Below, in pieces: positions 33,929-41,408 of a stretch of DNA of 41,819 bases (positions within the stretch are counted from its first letter, which is position 1; each line of letters begins with the position of its first letter). Origin of the DNA: a virus. Position numbers and translations under genes: made by a program. A model generated the notes under the pieces. The model saw only the letters and a program-made list of their open reading frames with translations. It ran no database searches and was not told where the DNA came from. The DNA lies in the IMG/VR virus record IMGVR_UViG_3300046010_014142, positions 1 to 41,819 of that record; one strand, 5' to 3'.

Positions 33929-34121
33929 AGCTAAGATTGCTCGTGAGACACATTTGAAATTTGGAGAAAAATTCCTATATTCATATGTGAATGGTGAAAA
34001 GAATGGTTGGATGTCAATACTTGGATTTAAAGTGGGTTGGACAAAAGAACCTCTTTTTTCGGTTAGACATGGTTATACCAAATCAATTAAAATTAAAGAT
34101 TATTATATTACACTAAAATGA
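33903..34121 (+). CDS. Small basic hypothetical protein
   Basis: A 72-residue basic protein (MWFKLYKIRAKIARETHLKF) rich in aromatic residues (FLYSYVNGEKNGWMSILGFK). It overlaps the glutamine synthetase ATG by four bases (ATGA), so it is probably translated with it. No family recognised. Confidence 0.6.
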   Translation: MWFKLYKIRAKIARETHLKFGEKFLYSYVNGEKNGWMSILGFKVGWTKEPLFSVRHGYTKSIKIKDYYITLK

Positions 34122-35251
34122 TTTCACACATAAAACTTGAATATGTTTGGTTAGATGGATACCAACCCGAACCTAATCTTCGTAGTAAGGTTAAGGTTAT
34201 TCAGATGGATTTTGATAAAATACCACTTTGGCCTGAGACACTTCCCGTATCAATGTGTCCTGAGTGGTCCTTTGATGGTTCGTCAACCAAACAGGCTGAG
34301 GGTCATTTCTCGGATTGTATTCTTAAACCTGTTAGAGTTTATAACAATCCACTAAACAAAGTACGATTAGAGTCATATTTGGTTTTATGTGAGGTTATGC
34401 ATCCTGATGGAACACCGCACATAAGTAACACCCGTGCGGACATTGGATACGAGGAAGAAGGTCTTTGGTTTGGTTTTGAACAAGAATATACCATTATGAA
34501 AGATGGAAGACCTTTGGGTTTCCCTGAGAATGGATATCCTGAACCACAAGGAAAGTATTATTGTGGTGTGGGTAACGGTCAGGTTCATGGTCGTGAGTTT
34601 GTTGATAAACACATGGAATACTGTCTGATGGCGGGTATTGAAGTTACAGGTACCAATGCCGAGGTTCTTTTGGGTCAGTGGGAATACCAAGTGTTCTCAA
34701 AAGGAAAAGAGAAGGCTGGTGATGATTTGTGGATGTCTCGTTATATTCTACAACAGATGTCTGAAGACTACGGATTCAAAATTGAATTCCACCCAAAACC
34801 TGTCATGGGTGATTGGAACGGTTCAGGACTACACTGTAACTTCTCAAACGATAGAATGAGAAATGAAGGTGGTGAGAATTACTTTAAGAATATCTTCAGA
34901 GCGTTTGACACTCGTCATGAACTTCATATTCAAAACTATGGTTCAGATAACAATCTTCGTCTGACAGGAAAACACGAGACACAATCTATTGACAAGTTTA
35001 GTTGGGGGGTATCAGACCGTGGTTCATCAATCCGAGTTCCACTTCAAACATCTAAGGAATGGAAAGGATATGTTGAAGACCGTCGTCCGGCATCTAACGG
35101 TGACCCTTATAAAATTGTGAGGGTGATTGCTGAAACATTAGACTTTGCATTGACTCTTGATGAAATAAGTCATAATATGTTTGCGGAGGTTGATACTAAG
35201 AACTCTCCAATGAACAGGGTTTTTGAACAAACACAGAACAACTATGAGTAA
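34118..35251 (+). CDS. Glutamine synthetase, type II (eukaryote/Bacteroidetes-like)
   Basis: A 377-residue, full-length type II glutamine synthetase: glutamate plus ammonia plus ATP gives glutamine. Motifs in order: EYVWLDGYQPEPNLRSKVKV (beta-grasp), PEWSFDGSSTKQAEGHFSD, WFGFEQEYT (metal/ATP glutamates), GVGNGQVHGREFVDKHMEYC, GTNAEVLLGQWEYQV, DWNGSGLHCNFS, RLTGKHETQ, WGVSDRGSSIRVP and EDRRPASNGDPYK. All active-site residues I can check are present, so it looks active. As a phage-carried metabolic gene it could supply glutamine for nucleotide and amino-acid synthesis under nitrogen limitation. It is translationally coupled to small genes on both sides and shows the same base and codon character as its neighbours. 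Confidence 0.95.
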   Translation: MISHIKLEYVWLDGYQPEPNLRSKVKVIQMDFDKIPLWPETLPVSMCPEWSFDGSSTKQAEGHFSDCILKPVRVYNNPLNKVRLESYLVLCEVMHPDGTPHISNTRADIGYEEEGLWFGFEQEYTIMKDGRPLGFPENGYPEPQGKYYCGVGNGQVHGREFVDKHMEYCLMAGIEVTGTNAEVLLGQWEYQVFSKGKEKAGDDLWMSRYILQQMSEDYGFKIEFHPKPVMGDWNGSGLHCNFSNDRMRNEGGENYFKNIFRAFDTRHELHIQNYGSDNNLRLTGKHETQSIDKFSWGVSDRGSSIRVPLQTSKEWKGYVEDRRPASNGDPYKIVRVIAETLDFALTLDEISHNMFAEVDTKNSPMNRVFEQTQNNYE

Positions 35252-35874: not shown

Positions 35875-36756
35875 ATGGTAGAAAATTATTTAGGAAAAAT
35901 CGTTAACGGTGACTGTATTGAAGTCATGAAAACCATGGAAGAAGGTTCCGTGGATTTAATTGTGACTTCACCTCCATACGGTGTTGGAATTGAATACGAC
36001 GTACATGATGATGATATGATTTGGGAGCAATATTCAAAATTTACATATTCGTGGATGGAACAAGCATACCGTGTTCTAAAAGACGACGGTAGAATTGCAT
36101 TAAACATCCCTTACGAGATTAACCGTCAGTCTAAAGGTGGTAGAATTTTTATGGTTAGCGAAGTTTGGCAAATCATGAAACAGATTGGTTACAAGTTCTT
36201 TGGAGTTGTTGACCTTGAAGAAGAATCTCCACACAGAAGTAGAACCACGGCTTGGGGGTCTTGGATGAGTCCTTCGGCTCCGTACATCTATAACCCAAAA
36301 GAGTGTGTTATTTTGGCATACAAAAACAAACACATCAAAACAATTAAAGGTCAACCTGAATGGGTTGGTGAAATGGGTGAAGTTGAAGGTAAGGATGGTA
36401 ACATGAGACCAAAAATGATGTACACAGAACAACAAAAACGTGAGTTCATTGATTTGGTCTTTGGACAGTGGAATTATTTTGCGGACACCAAGAGTATGAC
36501 TAAGGCAACATTCTCAATGGATATCCCAACTAAAGCAATTAAAATCCTCACTTACAAAAACGATATTGTGTTAGACCCTTTTGCTGGTTCAGGTACAAGT
36601 ATGGTTGCTGCTGAGACATTGAATCGTAGATGGGTGGGTATTGAACTAAGTCCAAATTATGCTAAAATTGCCAATGAAAGAGTTGGATTCTTCGTTCAAC
36701 AAAAAAGACAACAAGTTTTAGATTTTTCAAAAAAAACTGTTGAAACTTTGGACTAA
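35875..36756 (+). CDS. DNA methyltransferase (N6-adenine or N4-cytosine, beta class)
   Basis: A 293-residue DNA methyltransferase with the catalytic motif TSPPYG (Thr31-Gly36) near the N-terminus and the SAM-binding motif DPFAGSGTSMVAA (Asp234 onward) near the C-terminus, the beta-class order. TSPPY is commoner in N4-cytosine and some N6-adenine enzymes, so the base modified is undecided. Between them, a long target-recognition part includes GQPEWVGEMGEVEG. It has no adjoining restriction gene, so it is an orphan methylase that probably shields phage DNA. It is the second DNA methylase in the window. Confidence 0.9.
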   Translation: MVENYLGKIVNGDCIEVMKTMEEGSVDLIVTSPPYGVGIEYDVHDDDMIWEQYSKFTYSWMEQAYRVLKDDGRIALNIPYEINRQSKGGRIFMVSEVWQIMKQIGYKFFGVVDLEEESPHRSRTTAWGSWMSPSAPYIYNPKECVILAYKNKHIKTIKGQPEWVGEMGEVEGKDGNMRPKMMYTEQQKREFIDLVFGQWNYFADTKSMTKATFSMDIPTKAIKILTYKNDIVLDPFAGSGTSMVAAETLNRRWVGIELSPNYAKIANERVGFFVQQKRQQVLDFSKKTVETLD

Positions 36757-36834: not shown

Positions 36835-36861
36835 AATCCGTCATTTGACGGATTTTTTTTT
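36835..36861 (+). terminator. Rho-independent terminator
   Basis: AATCCGTC (36835-36842), loop ATTT, GACGGATT (36847-36854) and a T-run to 36861. It ends the methyltransferase/short-peptide transcript and insulates the synthetase-like gene at 36891. Confidence 0.88.
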
Positions 36862-36890
36862 GCCCATAACGCAACAAAAAACAAAAAAAA

Positions 36891-37721
36891 ATGAAAAACA
36901 CAAAAACCTACAACGAACTGGTACAAAAAATGAGACAATTCTTCCTTGACAGGAATTTTCTTGAAGTACCGACACAGTCAAGATTATCAATCCTCGCAGC
37001 TTGCGAGAATCCTCACTCAGTAAAAACGTTTGAGTACAACGGAGAAATTTGGCCTTTACCACAGACAGGTCAAATGTGGTTAGAGTACGAATTACTCAAA
37101 AACCCTCAATGGGATGGAGTTTTCTGTGTATCAACTTCCTATCGTGAAGAAAAAAACCCAATCCCCGGTAGACATGAAATGATTTTCCCGATGTTTGAAT
37201 TTGAATCAAAAGGTGGGATTAAAGAACTTCTTAAGTTAGAGTCTGATTTACTTGAATATTTGGGTTTTGAAAAAGAGGTAGAGGTTAAATATGAAGATGT
37301 TTGTGAAGAATACGGTGGAGTTCCTATTTTAGAAAATGAACATGAACAAAGAATGTGGCAAGAAAAGGGTCCTGTGGTATCACTACAGTATTTCCCAAAA
37401 AGAACAAATCCATTTTGGAATATGAAACACAAAGATGGTGAGATATTCAACAAAGTTGATGTTATCCTTTACGGTCAAGAAACAATTGGTTCTGCTGAAC
37501 GTTCATGTGATGTTGAGAAAATGAGAGAAATGTTCTACACGATTGAAGGTGGTGGTTATTCCGCCAAGTTGTTTGAACTATTTGGTAAAGACAGGGTAGA
37601 AAAAGAACTCGAAGAGTTCCTAACAATGAATTTCTTTGAAAGATTTGGTGGTGGAATTGGAATGACTCGTATGGCACGAGCATTTGAGTTACTCAAACAA
37701 GAACAACTTGAATTGGTTTAA
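36891..37721 (+). CDS. Class II aminoacyl-tRNA synthetase-like enzyme, catalytic core only (AsnRS/AspRS or asparagine-synthetase type)
   Basis: A 276-residue class II synthetase core without an anticodon-binding domain. FFLDRNFLEVPTQS is the motif 1 region; LPQTGQMWLEYEL matches the L-x-x-S/T-G-Q substrate loop of AspRS/AsnRS; VSTSYREEKNPIPGRHEMIF is motif 2 (Arg85, His95), and GGGIGMTRMARAF is motif 3 (Arg260). Complete motifs suggest it still activates an amino acid with ATP. Stand-alone AsnRS/AspRS-like cores include the archaeal asparagine synthetase related to AsnRS, which makes asparagine, and EpmA-like enzymes, which modify a protein lysine. I favour the AsnRS/AspRS branch from the TGQ loop and motif 2. 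Its nearness to glutamine synthetase fits an amide-metabolism role, which is inference. Confidence 0.75.
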   Translation: MKNTKTYNELVQKMRQFFLDRNFLEVPTQSRLSILAACENPHSVKTFEYNGEIWPLPQTGQMWLEYELLKNPQWDGVFCVSTSYREEKNPIPGRHEMIFPMFEFESKGGIKELLKLESDLLEYLGFEKEVEVKYEDVCEEYGGVPILENEHEQRMWQEKGPVVSLQYFPKRTNPFWNMKHKDGEIFNKVDVILYGQETIGSAERSCDVEKMREMFYTIEGGGYSAKLFELFGKDRVEKELEEFLTMNFFERFGGGIGMTRMARAFELLKQEQLELV

Positions 37722-37930: not shown

Positions 37931-38866
37931 ATGTCCCAAATAGTTTTAACAGAATCACAGCTTGTGGAACTCAAAACCAAACTTTATCGTGATAAAGTTA
38001 TTAAGGAAAGTGCGGGAAAACTACAACTCAACGAAGCCACTGGTTGGAATACTTTTTTTGATTATGTTGGTATAATTGACCCAACAGGTATGGTGGACTT
38101 TTTTAATGGATTATCTTACTTCGACCAAGGTGATAATTTCTTTGGTATTTTATCAATGGTTTCAGCAATACCTCTTTTGGGTGATATGGCGGCTAAACCA
38201 CTTATGATTAGTGCTAAGGCAGGTAAAACAAGTTTGAACATGTTAAGAGGTGCAATGGCTACGGGAGATGCTGTACAAGTTGCAAGAGCAGCTGCTAAAA
38301 GTGGTCCTGAGGCAAAAAAATTCGTAAGTACTGCAAATCAGTGGTCACAACCGTTGATGAATATATTAGAAAAAGGTAAAAACATTCCGTTAATTGGTGG
38401 TTTTTTCAAAACTATTGAAGGAAATGTTAAATTGTTAACAGCTAGTGCCGATGCAATGAATGCTGGTAAAACAGGTATGTCTGTTTTTAGAAACTATGGT
38501 ATTAATAGACAGAAAGGTTTATTGAGTCGTTGGTGGCAAAGAGGTTTGGGATTACAAAAAAATATACAATTGTCCAAACAACTTGCGGCAACAAAGTTTT
38601 GGTCAAGATTTTTAGACTCTTTGGGTATTGCAAATTTTGTTGGTCCCGATAAATTTGAATCTATTTATGGTCCTCAAATAACTCAGGAGGCTCTTGAGAC
38701 ATATGCATCAACTACAGAAGGTCAATCACTTTACCAACAAGAAATTGCAAAACTAATGGGTCAAAAACCCCAAACACAACAATCACCAACTGTTGTAGGA
38801 AATACAGAAGGTATTTCACAATCACCAATAACTTCAGTATTACTTAAATTATTGAGTCCAATATAA
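37931..38866 (+). CDS. Pre-toxin-like, membrane-active-looking probable virion protein with cleavable leader
   Basis: A 311-residue protein. The leader MSQIVLTESQLVELKTKLYR continues to KVIKESAGKLQLNEATGWN and holds three I/L-x-E sites followed by Ser or Ala (after residues 8, 26 and 35), the pattern cut by T4-type prohead proteases. Residues about 45-75 (DPTGMVDFFNGLSYFDQGDN, then FFGILSMVSAIPLLGDMAAK) closely resemble the hydrophobic P-x-G-D helical pair before toxin domains of polymorphic toxins (PT-TG-like). No toxin domain follows that I can see; the rest is helical and basic with a Gln/Pro/Thr-rich tail. I infer an internal virion protein that may act on the host membrane during DNA entry. 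Confidence 0.65.
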   Translation: MSQIVLTESQLVELKTKLYRDKVIKESAGKLQLNEATGWNTFFDYVGIIDPTGMVDFFNGLSYFDQGDNFFGILSMVSAIPLLGDMAAKPLMISAKAGKTSLNMLRGAMATGDAVQVARAAAKSGPEAKKFVSTANQWSQPLMNILEKGKNIPLIGGFFKTIEGNVKLLTASADAMNAGKTGMSVFRNYGINRQKGLLSRWWQRGLGLQKNIQLSKQLAATKFWSRFLDSLGIANFVGPDKFESIYGPQITQEALETYASTTEGQSLYQQEIAKLMGQKPQTQQSPTVVGNTEGISQSPITSVLLKLLSPI

Positions 38867-39237
38867 TGAAAGAAGAATATATTTTAAAATTAGTCCAAAT
38901 TCAGAATCAATTTAGATTCTTACACTGGCAAACAACATTTGATGCTAAACACAAGGCTTACGGAAACGTATATGAATCCCTAGATGATTTTATTGATGAA
39001 TTTGCCGAAGCAATGATGGGTAAATATGGTAGACCAGAATTCCCTTCAGAATTTTCAATTATGTTCCAAGACATAGAATCTTTATCAATGCAAAACTTCA
39101 TAGATGGAATCTGTGAGTTCTTAATCTCAATGTCAGACGGATTGGATTCAAGAACCGATAGTGATTTACTTAACCTCAGAGATGAGATGTTAGCAACTAT
39201 CAATAAATTAAAATATCTATTAACTTTAAAATATTAA
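38866..39237 (+). CDS. DUF5856-like helical protein (ferritin/Dps-like helices)
   Basis: A 123-residue, mostly helical protein. FRFLHWQTTFDAKHKAYGNV followed by YESLDDFIDEFAEAMMGKYG has the H-x-x-T-x-x-x-x-x-H-x-x-Y/LDDFID-x-x-AE pattern of the DUF5856 phage family, which looks like the first two helices of a Dps/ferritin-like bundle. Ferroxidase activity is not established. The ATG shares its first base with the last base of the upstream TAA stop (TAATG), and a peptidoglycan-binding-like gene follows one base after its stop. Confidence 0.72.
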   Translation: MKEEYILKLVQIQNQFRFLHWQTTFDAKHKAYGNVYESLDDFIDEFAEAMMGKYGRPEFPSEFSIMFQDIESLSMQNFIDGICEFLISMSDGLDSRTDSDLLNLRDEMLATINKLKYLLTLKY

Positions 39238-39238
39238 T

Positions 39239-39646
39239 ATGAGTAAATTTCTTATTAACGAAGAAGAGAAGAAAAGAATTCTCGGAATGCACTTAAATGC
39301 CACTTCAAGACAATATCTTAAGGAGGATTTTAATAATTCCATGACAACAATCGAGAGATATAATTACAATATGGCAATCCAATGTTTCTTGAATAAAAAA
39401 GGAGTTAAGGACGATGCTGGAAAACCTCTTGTAATGGACGGTTCAATAGGTAATTGGCCTAAGTCCAAAAGTGCTCAAGCAGTTGCTACTTATCAAAATA
39501 TGATTAAGGTTTATCCTGCTGATGGTGTTTGGGGTGAAGACACAATGGATAAAATGCCAGAAAATGACAAAGTTATTTTTAAACAATGTGTTTCTGACCA
39601 TGGAGATTTATTCCAAAAAGTTATACATTATTTTGGTTGGGACTAA
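39239..39646 (+). CDS. Peptidoglycan-binding-like protein with virion-type leader
   Basis: A 135-residue protein. It begins MSKFLINEEEKKRILGMHLN, a leader-like motif echoed in the tail of the 616-residue structural protein. Residues about 45-105 (AIQCFLNKKGVKDDAG, VMDGSIGNWPKSKSAQAVAT, YQNMIKVYPADGVWGEDTMD) match the PG_binding_1 pattern with its two DGxWG-like turns. It could be a virion-borne domain that docks on peptidoglycan during entry or in the lysis machinery. Its TAA overlaps the next ATG (TAATG). Confidence 0.72.
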   Translation: MSKFLINEEEKKRILGMHLNATSRQYLKEDFNNSMTTIERYNYNMAIQCFLNKKGVKDDAGKPLVMDGSIGNWPKSKSAQAVATYQNMIKVYPADGVWGEDTMDKMPENDKVIFKQCVSDHGDLFQKVIHYFGWD

Positions 39647-41058
39647 TGAAAAAGGTAATTAAAGAATCGGGTTTACGTGACATCAAAGCTTTGGCGAAAA
39701 GATACCCAAAGGCTAAGATATATTTTCACCAAGATTTAGATGGTGTAACAACTGCAATTGCAATGAAAAAATATCTTGAGGACAATGGTATTGATGTCGT
39801 AGATTCTGAAGTAATTCAATATGGTGAAAAAGAGTTCTCCGTTAAAAAACCTGATGCGAGTGGTGATGTGATGCCAGTCCTTGTGGATTTTGCTCACGGT
39901 AAACCAATGTTTGTGATTCACACAGACCATCACGACACTCAAGTGGGTGCTGAGAAAGATGCCGCTAAATCGTTCCGTCAGGCTCGTTCTAATGTTGAAA
40001 CCATTTCACAAATCATTTCTCCAAAAGAACTATTCCCAAGTAAAGATATTTTGTTGATTTCGACAGTGGATTCAGCAGACTTTGCAAGACAAGATTTAAC
40101 AACTCAAGATGTTGTTAATTTCTTATTTAGACTAGATAAGGAAAAGGATTTATCACGAAACAAGATGTTGATGGGACTTGTGACAAACAAGTTATTATTG
40201 GCATTTAAAAACAAAAAAGGTTTTTTAGAGTCATTAGTGATGGATTCAGAACCTTCATTATATTCGATACTCAACAACATTAAAAAATGGATGAGTGAGA
40301 ATACTCGTGAGACCCCTGAGAGATTACAAAGAAATGCTAAAGAATATATGGATTCAATGGCAAAGCATCCGAACGTTAAAGTTGAAGATGGTATTATCCT
40401 TCAATACGGGATGGGTTCATTAAAAGGTACTGGTTCTTACGATAGATACACACCATTTAGAAATAACCCTGAGGCGGATTTCTTAATTATTATGTGGCCT
40501 TTAGGGTTAGTTCAAGCGTCTTGTAATCCATTCAAGAAAGATAGAGAACTTAAAGGTGTTAACTTAGGTGAGATTAAAGATGAGGTATTGGAAAAGTGGA
40601 AGTCACAACTTCAAGATAGAACTATTCCATTATCAACAATCAAATACATTGCAGAAACTGCCATGGGTCCTGAATCAGTAGGATTCACATTCAAGGACTT
40701 TGATGCAATCTACGGTGGTAAAATTATGATGATGGATGGTGGTGAACAGATATTGGAAAAGTTAAGACCAATTGTTGACAAACCATTTTCAGAACTAACT
40801 GAACCTGAAAAAGAAACTTTGGATAAGATTGGTGTAAATGCTTGGGATTTGATTCAAGCAAACTCAGGTGGTCACAAATGTATTACAAACATTTCTGGTT
40901 TGAACTTTTTGGGTAGAGCTAAAAGACCATCTACAGGACCATACAAGTATGACCCTGAAAGAGATGATGCTCCATACATCAAATTTGTTAAGATGATTGG
41001 TCAGGAATTCTTTAGAGTGTTGAAAGAAAAGATTGCTCAGAGCAAACAACAGAATTAA
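39646..41058 (+). CDS. DHH-family phosphoesterase (RecJ/NrnA-like)
   Basis: A 470-residue protein starting MKKVIKESGLRDIKALAK (ATG 39646; a TTG at 39637 adds only three residues). HQDLDGVTTAIAMK (28-41), LVDFAHG (79-85), IHTDHHDTQ (91-99, with the DHH signature) and STVDSADF are the DHH metal-binding motifs. The segment NSGGHKCITNISGLNF near the C-terminus is the GGH substrate-binding motif of the DHHA1 part. The family hydrolyses phosphodiester bonds in single-stranded DNA, short oligonucleotides or cyclic dinucleotides; which applies here is open. The N-terminal I-K-E|S leader, if cut, would put this enzyme inside the virion. Cyclic-nucleotide degradation to counter host defence is one attractive but untested role. 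Confidence 0.85.
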   Translation: MKKVIKESGLRDIKALAKRYPKAKIYFHQDLDGVTTAIAMKKYLEDNGIDVVDSEVIQYGEKEFSVKKPDASGDVMPVLVDFAHGKPMFVIHTDHHDTQVGAEKDAAKSFRQARSNVETISQIISPKELFPSKDILLISTVDSADFARQDLTTQDVVNFLFRLDKEKDLSRNKMLMGLVTNKLLLAFKNKKGFLESLVMDSEPSLYSILNNIKKWMSENTRETPERLQRNAKEYMDSMAKHPNVKVEDGIILQYGMGSLKGTGSYDRYTPFRNNPEADFLIIMWPLGLVQASCNPFKKDRELKGVNLGEIKDEVLEKWKSQLQDRTIPLSTIKYIAETAMGPESVGFTFKDFDAIYGGKIMMMDGGEQILEKLRPIVDKPFSELTEPEKETLDKIGVNAWDLIQANSGGHKCITNISGLNFLGRAKRPSTGPYKYDPERDDAPYIKFVKMIGQEFFRVLKEKIAQSKQQN

Positions 41059-41408
41059 TCAAAGATGAATTTTATTTCATCACCTTTGTTAATTCCCAAA
41101 TCTTTGGAAGAACCTCCAGTAATTTCAAGTATCACATACCCACGACCACAGTAAGAGTCGCAGTCTTCTTTATCACCACAAGGTAAACAATTATGGTGGA
41201 TTTTAGATATAATTTGGTTATCAATAAAAATTATATCCAACGGTATGGTACAGTTTTTCATCCAAAAACAATTTGTGTAGTCATTCATCAAAAATAACAT
41301 TCCGTTAAAATTGTCGTTGAAAGTTTTACCCATCATACCAATTGCACGACTTCTATTATCATCGGCAATCTTCACCTTGAAAATGTTTTCACCTATTTTT
41401 ACTTTCAT
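41055..41408 (-). CDS. DUF192 protein
   Basis: A 117-residue minus-strand protein with the DUF192 core: GMMGKTFNDNFNGMLFLMND, FWMKNCTIPLDIIFIDN and VILEITGGSSKDLG. Host members usually carry a signal peptide; this one has none, so it is probably cytoplasmic or packaged. An extra Cys cluster (CLPCGDKEDCDSYCGRG) lies before the last strands and could bind metal. Its stop shares TTAA with the DHH gene stop, and its start faces the NUDIX gene across a palindromic motif. Confidence 0.85.
   Translation of the reverse strand: MKVKIGENIFKVKIADDNRSRAIGMMGKTFNDNFNGMLFLMNDYTNCFWMKNCTIPLDIIFIDNQIISKIHHNCLPCGDKEDCDSYCGRGYVILEITGGSSKDLGINKGDEIKFIFD

Follow-up and report, generated by a model that had tools for sequence, protein, structure and literature searches.

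The window, as the whole stretch of 41,819 nt is called here, is a linear virus record (41.8 kb) in which an open reading frame encodes a stand-alone AsnRS-like catalytic core (Table 1). The name core is used for this gene or protein and for the other stand-alone AsnRS-like members of PHROG 29758, a family of unknown function whose profile was matched by the window protein over its full length (9e-97) and also by a gammaproteobacterial protein encoded in a pyr operon (L227, 1.7e-93). The window protein matched PF00152 (tRNA-synt_2) at 3e-12, above the curated Pfam cut-off. AlphaFold modelled it as one domain of 276 aa (pLDDT 94.2, pTM 0.91), and the best Foldseek match of the model was 1x54, the AsnRS:Asn-AMP structure from P. 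horikoshii (TMq 0.78). No N-terminal OB-fold anticodon-binding domain was found in the window protein, as the model has a single domain and there is no room upstream, where the open reading frame of a DNA methyltransferase stops 134 nt short of the core start. The original prediction of a stand-alone core of the AsnRS/AspRS type without an anticodon-binding domain was thus confirmed by the reading frame, the Pfam match and the one-domain model, and the structural comparison with known families that it had proposed placed AsnRS closest.

Table 1. Features in the window, and features of core loci in related viral and cellular records
Feature	Record or locus	Position	Strand	Evidence or remark
Glutamine synthetase homologue, divergent	window	34118..35251	+	PF00120 7.6e-15, PF03951 2e-10
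DNA methyltransferase (N6_N4_Mtase)	window	35875..36756	+	PF01555 2.1e-34; outside the proposed function
Terminator-like hairpin followed by a T-run, between the methyltransferase gene and the core	window	36836..36861	+	sequence
Stand-alone AsnRS-like catalytic core, 276 aa	window	36891..37721	+	open reading frame with ATG start, Pfam/PHROG, predicted structure
Protein matching PHROG 858, starvation-inducible regulator (Dps-like?)	window	38866-39237		4.7e-17
Weak DHH-domain protein	window	39637-41058		near the core in several window-clade loci too
DUF192 protein	window	41055-41408	minus	near the core in several window-clade loci too
core-pyrE-pyrF	L223, L227, L230, L233, L270		same strand	
core-pyrF-pyrD	L258, L262, L271, L241		same strand	
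core-pyrD-pyrE	L235		same strand	
core-pyrEF-pyrD	L272		same strand	
pyrD-pyrEF-core	L210, L212		same strand	
Odd tRNA-like elements	L064	6509, 6742, 7010, 8800	+	
Odd tRNA-like elements	L174; L181; L187; L346	L174:1188; L181:556, 1089; L187:564; L346:19923	minus	counted on the reverse complement

More than 600 relatives of the core were present among the matches listed from IMG/VR, and these were found in T4-like phages wherever the context was informative. The viral relatives comprise the window clade (80 close relatives), a cyanophage-type clade and a divergent set, designated 'mar', that includes two huge phages; a scan with the protein L086 from a huge phage found nothing. Cellular genomes yielded 123 matching stretches with approximately 53–61% identity, from CPR, DPANN, Chlamydiae, Dependentiae, Midichloriaceae, Bacteroidota and Proteobacteria, and no plasmid relatives were found. 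In the phylogenetic tree, a strongly supported branch separated each of the window and cyanophage clades from the rest, and both lay among cellular members. The cyanophage genes are annotated as 'tRNA ligase'. With this many viral and cellular matches, and 47 residues invariant across 75 diverse core sequences, the family is not a chance open reading frame.

A glutamine synthetase homologue stops 1.64 kb before the core, and the original prediction had placed the two together in a possible amide-synthesis module. The homologue is real, but the module was rejected because the linkage is not conserved, glutamine synthetase being found near the core in three of approximately 83 window-clade loci, all on near-identical contigs, and in one of the 12 'mar' loci. 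The methyltransferase gene was likewise near the core in three near-identical window-clade loci, with a few more at other distances. Many loci in the window clade have a terminator-like hairpin, then TTTTTTTTGCCC and an A-rich leader, upstream of the core (positions 36836-36890 in the window). This arrangement is possibly a phage promoter motif, and from its sequence the core appears to be transcribed as a separate unit in this clade.

The motifs 1–3 and the TGQ loop, which the original prediction had described as intact, are largely so. The window protein includes a motif 1-like region, a QTGQ loop (Q58-T59-G60-Q61), YREE in motif 2 (R85 and E87) and GGGIGMTR in motif 3 (R260). The motif 3 Arg is normally preceded by an acidic residue. 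In the window protein this residue is Thr, and in some relatives it is Gln, Pro or Asn, and therefore motif 3 is intact only for the Arg and the glycines. No variation was seen across the four groups, phage and cellular, at E39, Q58, Q61, L64, E65, R85, E87, H95, E103, E105, E197, R204 and R260, or at A37-C38 and N177-M178, which are specific to the family. In alignments with eukaryotic AsnRS, R85, E87, R204, Q58 and Q61 correspond to AsnRS residues, and L64 falls at the position of the AspRS side-chain Lys, which is AsnRS-like. The Arg204 position, at which AsnRS and AspRS bind the Asp or Asn side chain, is retained. Together, L64 and the retained R204 suggest that the substrate is asparagine. 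As the catalytic and Asn-binding positions are invariant in all four groups, the same chemistry would be expected in every member.

A profile built from the 75 core relatives matched AsnRS at 1.3e-12, ahead of AspRS, LysRS and archaeal asparagine synthetase A (AS-AR; 3p8t, 1.5e-4). AsnRS (class IIb; 1x54, 2xgt), the best match by both structure and profile, has the catalytic fold and the Asn/ATP active-site residues in common with the core, at approximately 18–21% identity in structural alignments. The core differs from it in lacking the OB-fold anticodon domain, in having T-R rather than E-R in motif 3, and in the invariant A37-C38 and N177-M178. Scores against the curated AsnRS models were far under the cut-offs (24.0 of 342.6 bits for TIGR00457 and 24.9 of 414 bits for NF003037). 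The asparagine synthetase A models NF005053 and NF005055 gave no match for the window protein, with relatives reaching 17 of 389 and 19.6 of 322 bits, and the EpmA/GenX model TIGR00462 gave 20.9 of 286.9 bits for the window protein. The core is therefore built on an AsnRS scaffold and belongs to none of these families.

The commonest co-directional neighbours of the cellular core, determined by neighbour clustering and family scans, are PyrF, PyrE and dihydroorotate dehydrogenase (DHODH), including a divergent DHODH in Chlamydiae and Midichloriaceae. A pyr gene was found near the core in 22 of 77 cellular loci, approximately 13 of them tight operons, with at least five arrangements across phyla (Table 1), and none was found in the remaining 55 within the stretch examined. 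Many of the CPR and DPANN members lie beside dnaX, ruvB or dus, and no match to PyrE or DHODH was obtained in many of their genomes. Near dnaX, ruvB or dus, and not near pyr genes, were several CPR members (L202, L222, L226, L242, L249 and L254) and one from Babeliales (L220). In MAGs of Bacteroidota and Gammaproteobacteria (L214, L225 and L223), genes for ATP-dependent PEP carboxykinase adjoin the core or lie close to it.

Models for PyrE, DHODH, PyrB, CarB and PyrC each found a match in all 14 control genomes. When 48 whole genomes with the core were searched, PyrE was found in 32 (23 over the cut-off) and DHODH in 20, but the early enzymes were rare (PyrB over the cut-off in three, PyrC over the cut-off in two, and CarB in three). 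PyrB was present in two (G028 and G071) of the 23 PyrE-positive genomes and CarB also in two (G071 and G074), with corresponding figures of two and one among the 20 DHODH-positive genomes. Early enzymes are nevertheless retained in a few core genomes (G028, G071). In the bacterial family of one core genome (G031), PyrB was found in 212 of 247 genomes and in none of the four that carry the core, an absence with a hypergeometric probability of approximately 3.5e-4 that is not corrected for relatedness. Some Bacteroidota with the core keep PyrC-like amidohydrolases, several of which adjoin PreA and are therefore probably dihydropyrimidinases. Many of the core genomes are incomplete MAGs, but gaps in assembly cannot easily explain the presence of the late pyr genes and the absence of the early ones in so many genomes, though relatedness is uncorrected here too.

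Among phages, the core is present in the cyanophage isolates P-SSM2, P-SSM5 and P-SSM7. These also have pyrE, which was found in no other cyanophage isolate among approximately 463 cyanophage records containing a related gp23 (378 Synechococcus, 61 Cyanophage and 24 Prochlorococcus). The pyrE gene is a known host gene in cyanophages (PMC9983427). In the three isolates, pyrE and the core are far apart in the genome, so this is co-occurrence rather than hitch-hiking, with approximately two independent lineages behind it. In four further phage contigs, pyrE is no more than two genes from the core, and two of the three larger cyanophage-type records have pyrE. PyrF was not found in the phages, nor PyrD in the cyanophages. 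In the window clade, pyrE was found in none of 37 larger records and no pyr gene was near the core, so host PyrD, PyrE and PyrF would be needed.

In the cyanophage-type loci, a type II (long-armed) tRNA-Asn(GUU) begins no more than approximately 13 nt past the core stop codon in all 76 loci with enough downstream sequence. A similar tRNA lies near the core (within approximately 1 kb) in six of the 12 'mar' loci and in L269, a phage contig identified as such by its neighbours, a gp43-type DNA polymerase and a primase. Single-sequence folds gave only modest z-scores and the structure therefore rests on covariation, with 99.4% of cells paired and changes on both sides in 19 of 25 pairs. The cyanophage-type tRNAs all have U1-A72 and G73, and some 'mar' tRNAs have A1-U72 with G73. 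Position 37 is U in all 80 long-armed tRNAs and A in the six ordinary tRNA-Asn from the same data. No tRNA was detected beside the core in the window using ARAGORN, Rfam or the covariance model with filters off (best E 0.18), and the 210-nt gap that follows the core can be read as a short open reading frame on the minus strand. The long-armed tRNA-Asn was absent from all 84 window-clade loci, and the best covariance-model matches inspected in larger relatives from this clade were ordinary tRNAs, mostly tRNA-Leu. The best matches in 22 cellular genomes were also tRNA-Leu, except in the genome that includes L269. The long-armed tRNA appears to be a virus-specific addition, possibly a non-decoding Asn carrier. 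Several window-clade records contain odd long tRNA-like elements (Table 1), several per genome, with a near-identical acceptor (AGTCAGG...CCTGACT) and T arm and variable or abnormal anticodon regions.

The company of pyr genes, and the occurrence of the core where the first three pyrimidine enzymes are missing, argue that its probable role is to make pyrimidine precursors, by a route not yet described, and not to charge tRNA for translation. The suggestion in the original prediction of a role outside ordinary tRNA charging is in this way supported, and the pyrimidine operons of the cellular relatives make a metabolic role likely. From the predicted fold, the conserved AsnRS active site, the operons, the lack of PyrB and CarB in most genomes and the cyanophage co-occurrence with pyrE, we infer a substrate, product and reaction. 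The core would be an AsnRS-derived, ATP-dependent, asparagine-activating enzyme that dispenses with CarAB, PyrB and PyrC in providing dihydroorotate or its immediate precursor, a proposal that we consider has about an even chance of being correct. The reaction would be L-Asn + HCO3- + ATP -> L-dihydroorotate + AMP + PPi. The balance is exact, as Asn + CO2 - H2O gives C5H6N2O4, the composition of dihydroorotate, and so one ATP-dependent carboxylation and cyclisation would replace three enzymes. By chemical reasoning, two routes may be envisaged. In one, Asn-AMP formed by ordinary AsnRS chemistry would react with bicarbonate to give an N-carboxyanhydride, and the side-chain amide would then close the six-membered ring and free the alpha-carboxylate; in the other, N-carboxy-Asn would be adenylated. 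PyrD, PyrE and PyrF would complete the path to UMP, and infection by the window phage would bypass the regulated first steps of pyrimidine synthesis and use the host PyrD, PyrE and PyrF. CarAB, PyrB and PyrC would lead to the same product, but they have an unrelated fold, use three steps from Gln, HCO3- and Asp in place of one ATP-dependent step from Asn, and are mostly absent where the core occurs. Counting against the pyrimidine role are the lack of pyr genes in the window clade, the 55 cellular loci with none nearby, the many CPR and DPANN genomes with no PyrE or DHODH match, the early enzymes kept in a few core genomes, the PyrC-like genes of some Bacteroidota, the incompleteness of many MAGs and the phage tRNA, which the proposed reaction leaves unexplained.

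The same operons and absences could reflect a pyrimidine role with other chemistry, for example one in which the core uses ATP to cyclise carbamoyl-aspartate, carbamoylates Asp with a different donor or regulates PyrE in the way that HisZ acts on HisG, with the marine-phage tRNA as a possible Asn carrier. Most core genomes lack PyrC and some Bacteroidota keep a PyrC-like gene, which would suit such schemes, but with PyrB and CarAB missing carbamoyl-aspartate has no known source, and the complete conservation of the adenylation residues speaks against a purely regulatory protein. We regard these variants as fairly unlikely. A lower probability still attaches to a minimal phage AsnRS that charges the dedicated tRNA-Asn for translation and reads the long variable arm and G73 rather than the anticodon. 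The proximity of this tRNA to the core in marine phages, its strong covariation, its Asn-like traits (the GUU anticodon and G73) and the AsnRS-like catalytic core would all fit. However, the uniform U37 is ill-suited to normal decoding, the tRNA was missing from the window clade and, outside the phage contig L269, from the cellular genomes searched, and neither the pyr operons nor the missing PyrB and CarB are explained.

The least probable readings, which we consider very unlikely, are that the core makes asparagine with ammonia as AS-AR does, or modifies a protein as EpmA/GenX (the EF-P lysine aminoacylase) does. Both of these enzymes are stand-alone class IIb cores, and AS-AR puts an AsnRS/AspRS core to metabolic use and is a weak profile match. 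AsnRS is much closer, L64 is AsnRS-like, the core keeps Arg204 in contrast to EpmA, its context is one of pyrimidine genes, and neither role predicts pyr operons without PyrB. With scores so far under the curated cut-offs, identity with either family was rejected, and the AsnA-type asparagine synthesis and EF-P modification raised in the original prediction were not upheld. A DNA hypermodification role like that of the phage amide ligase CmoY was also discarded. CmoY is described as an asparagine synthetase homologue that acts on DNA, some members having a glutaminase domain (AsnB type; PMC12783734). It resembles the core as a phage enzyme with an ancestry in asparagine metabolism and a nucleotide-related role, but it belongs to a different protein family.

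In its widest form, the proposal would have one enzyme of AsnRS descent make dihydroorotate from asparagine, bicarbonate and ATP, giving a second de novo route to pyrimidines. This route would replace CarAB, PyrB and PyrC in many CPR, DPANN, Chlamydiae, relatives of Rickettsiales and others, would be carried by phages to bypass the regulated first steps, and in some marine phages would be accompanied by a dedicated non-decoding tRNA-Asn carrier. We hold this wider version as tentative, and somewhat doubtful as a whole. In the literature covered, which was incomplete so that earlier work is possible, there was no report linking AsnRS-like proteins with pyr operons, with an Asn-to-dihydroorotate reaction or with this long-armed tRNA.

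The standard teaching is that pyrimidines are made de novo by a single, almost universal route. The long-armed tRNA-Asn of the marine phages, with its U37, is a separate oddity. If correct, the proposed reaction would explain how UMP is made in many small-genome and host-associated microbes that have PyrD, PyrE and PyrF without PyrB or CarAB. It would also mean that a tRNA synthetase has been converted to a nucleotide enzyme, and would assign a role to a phage gene that has hundreds of relatives.
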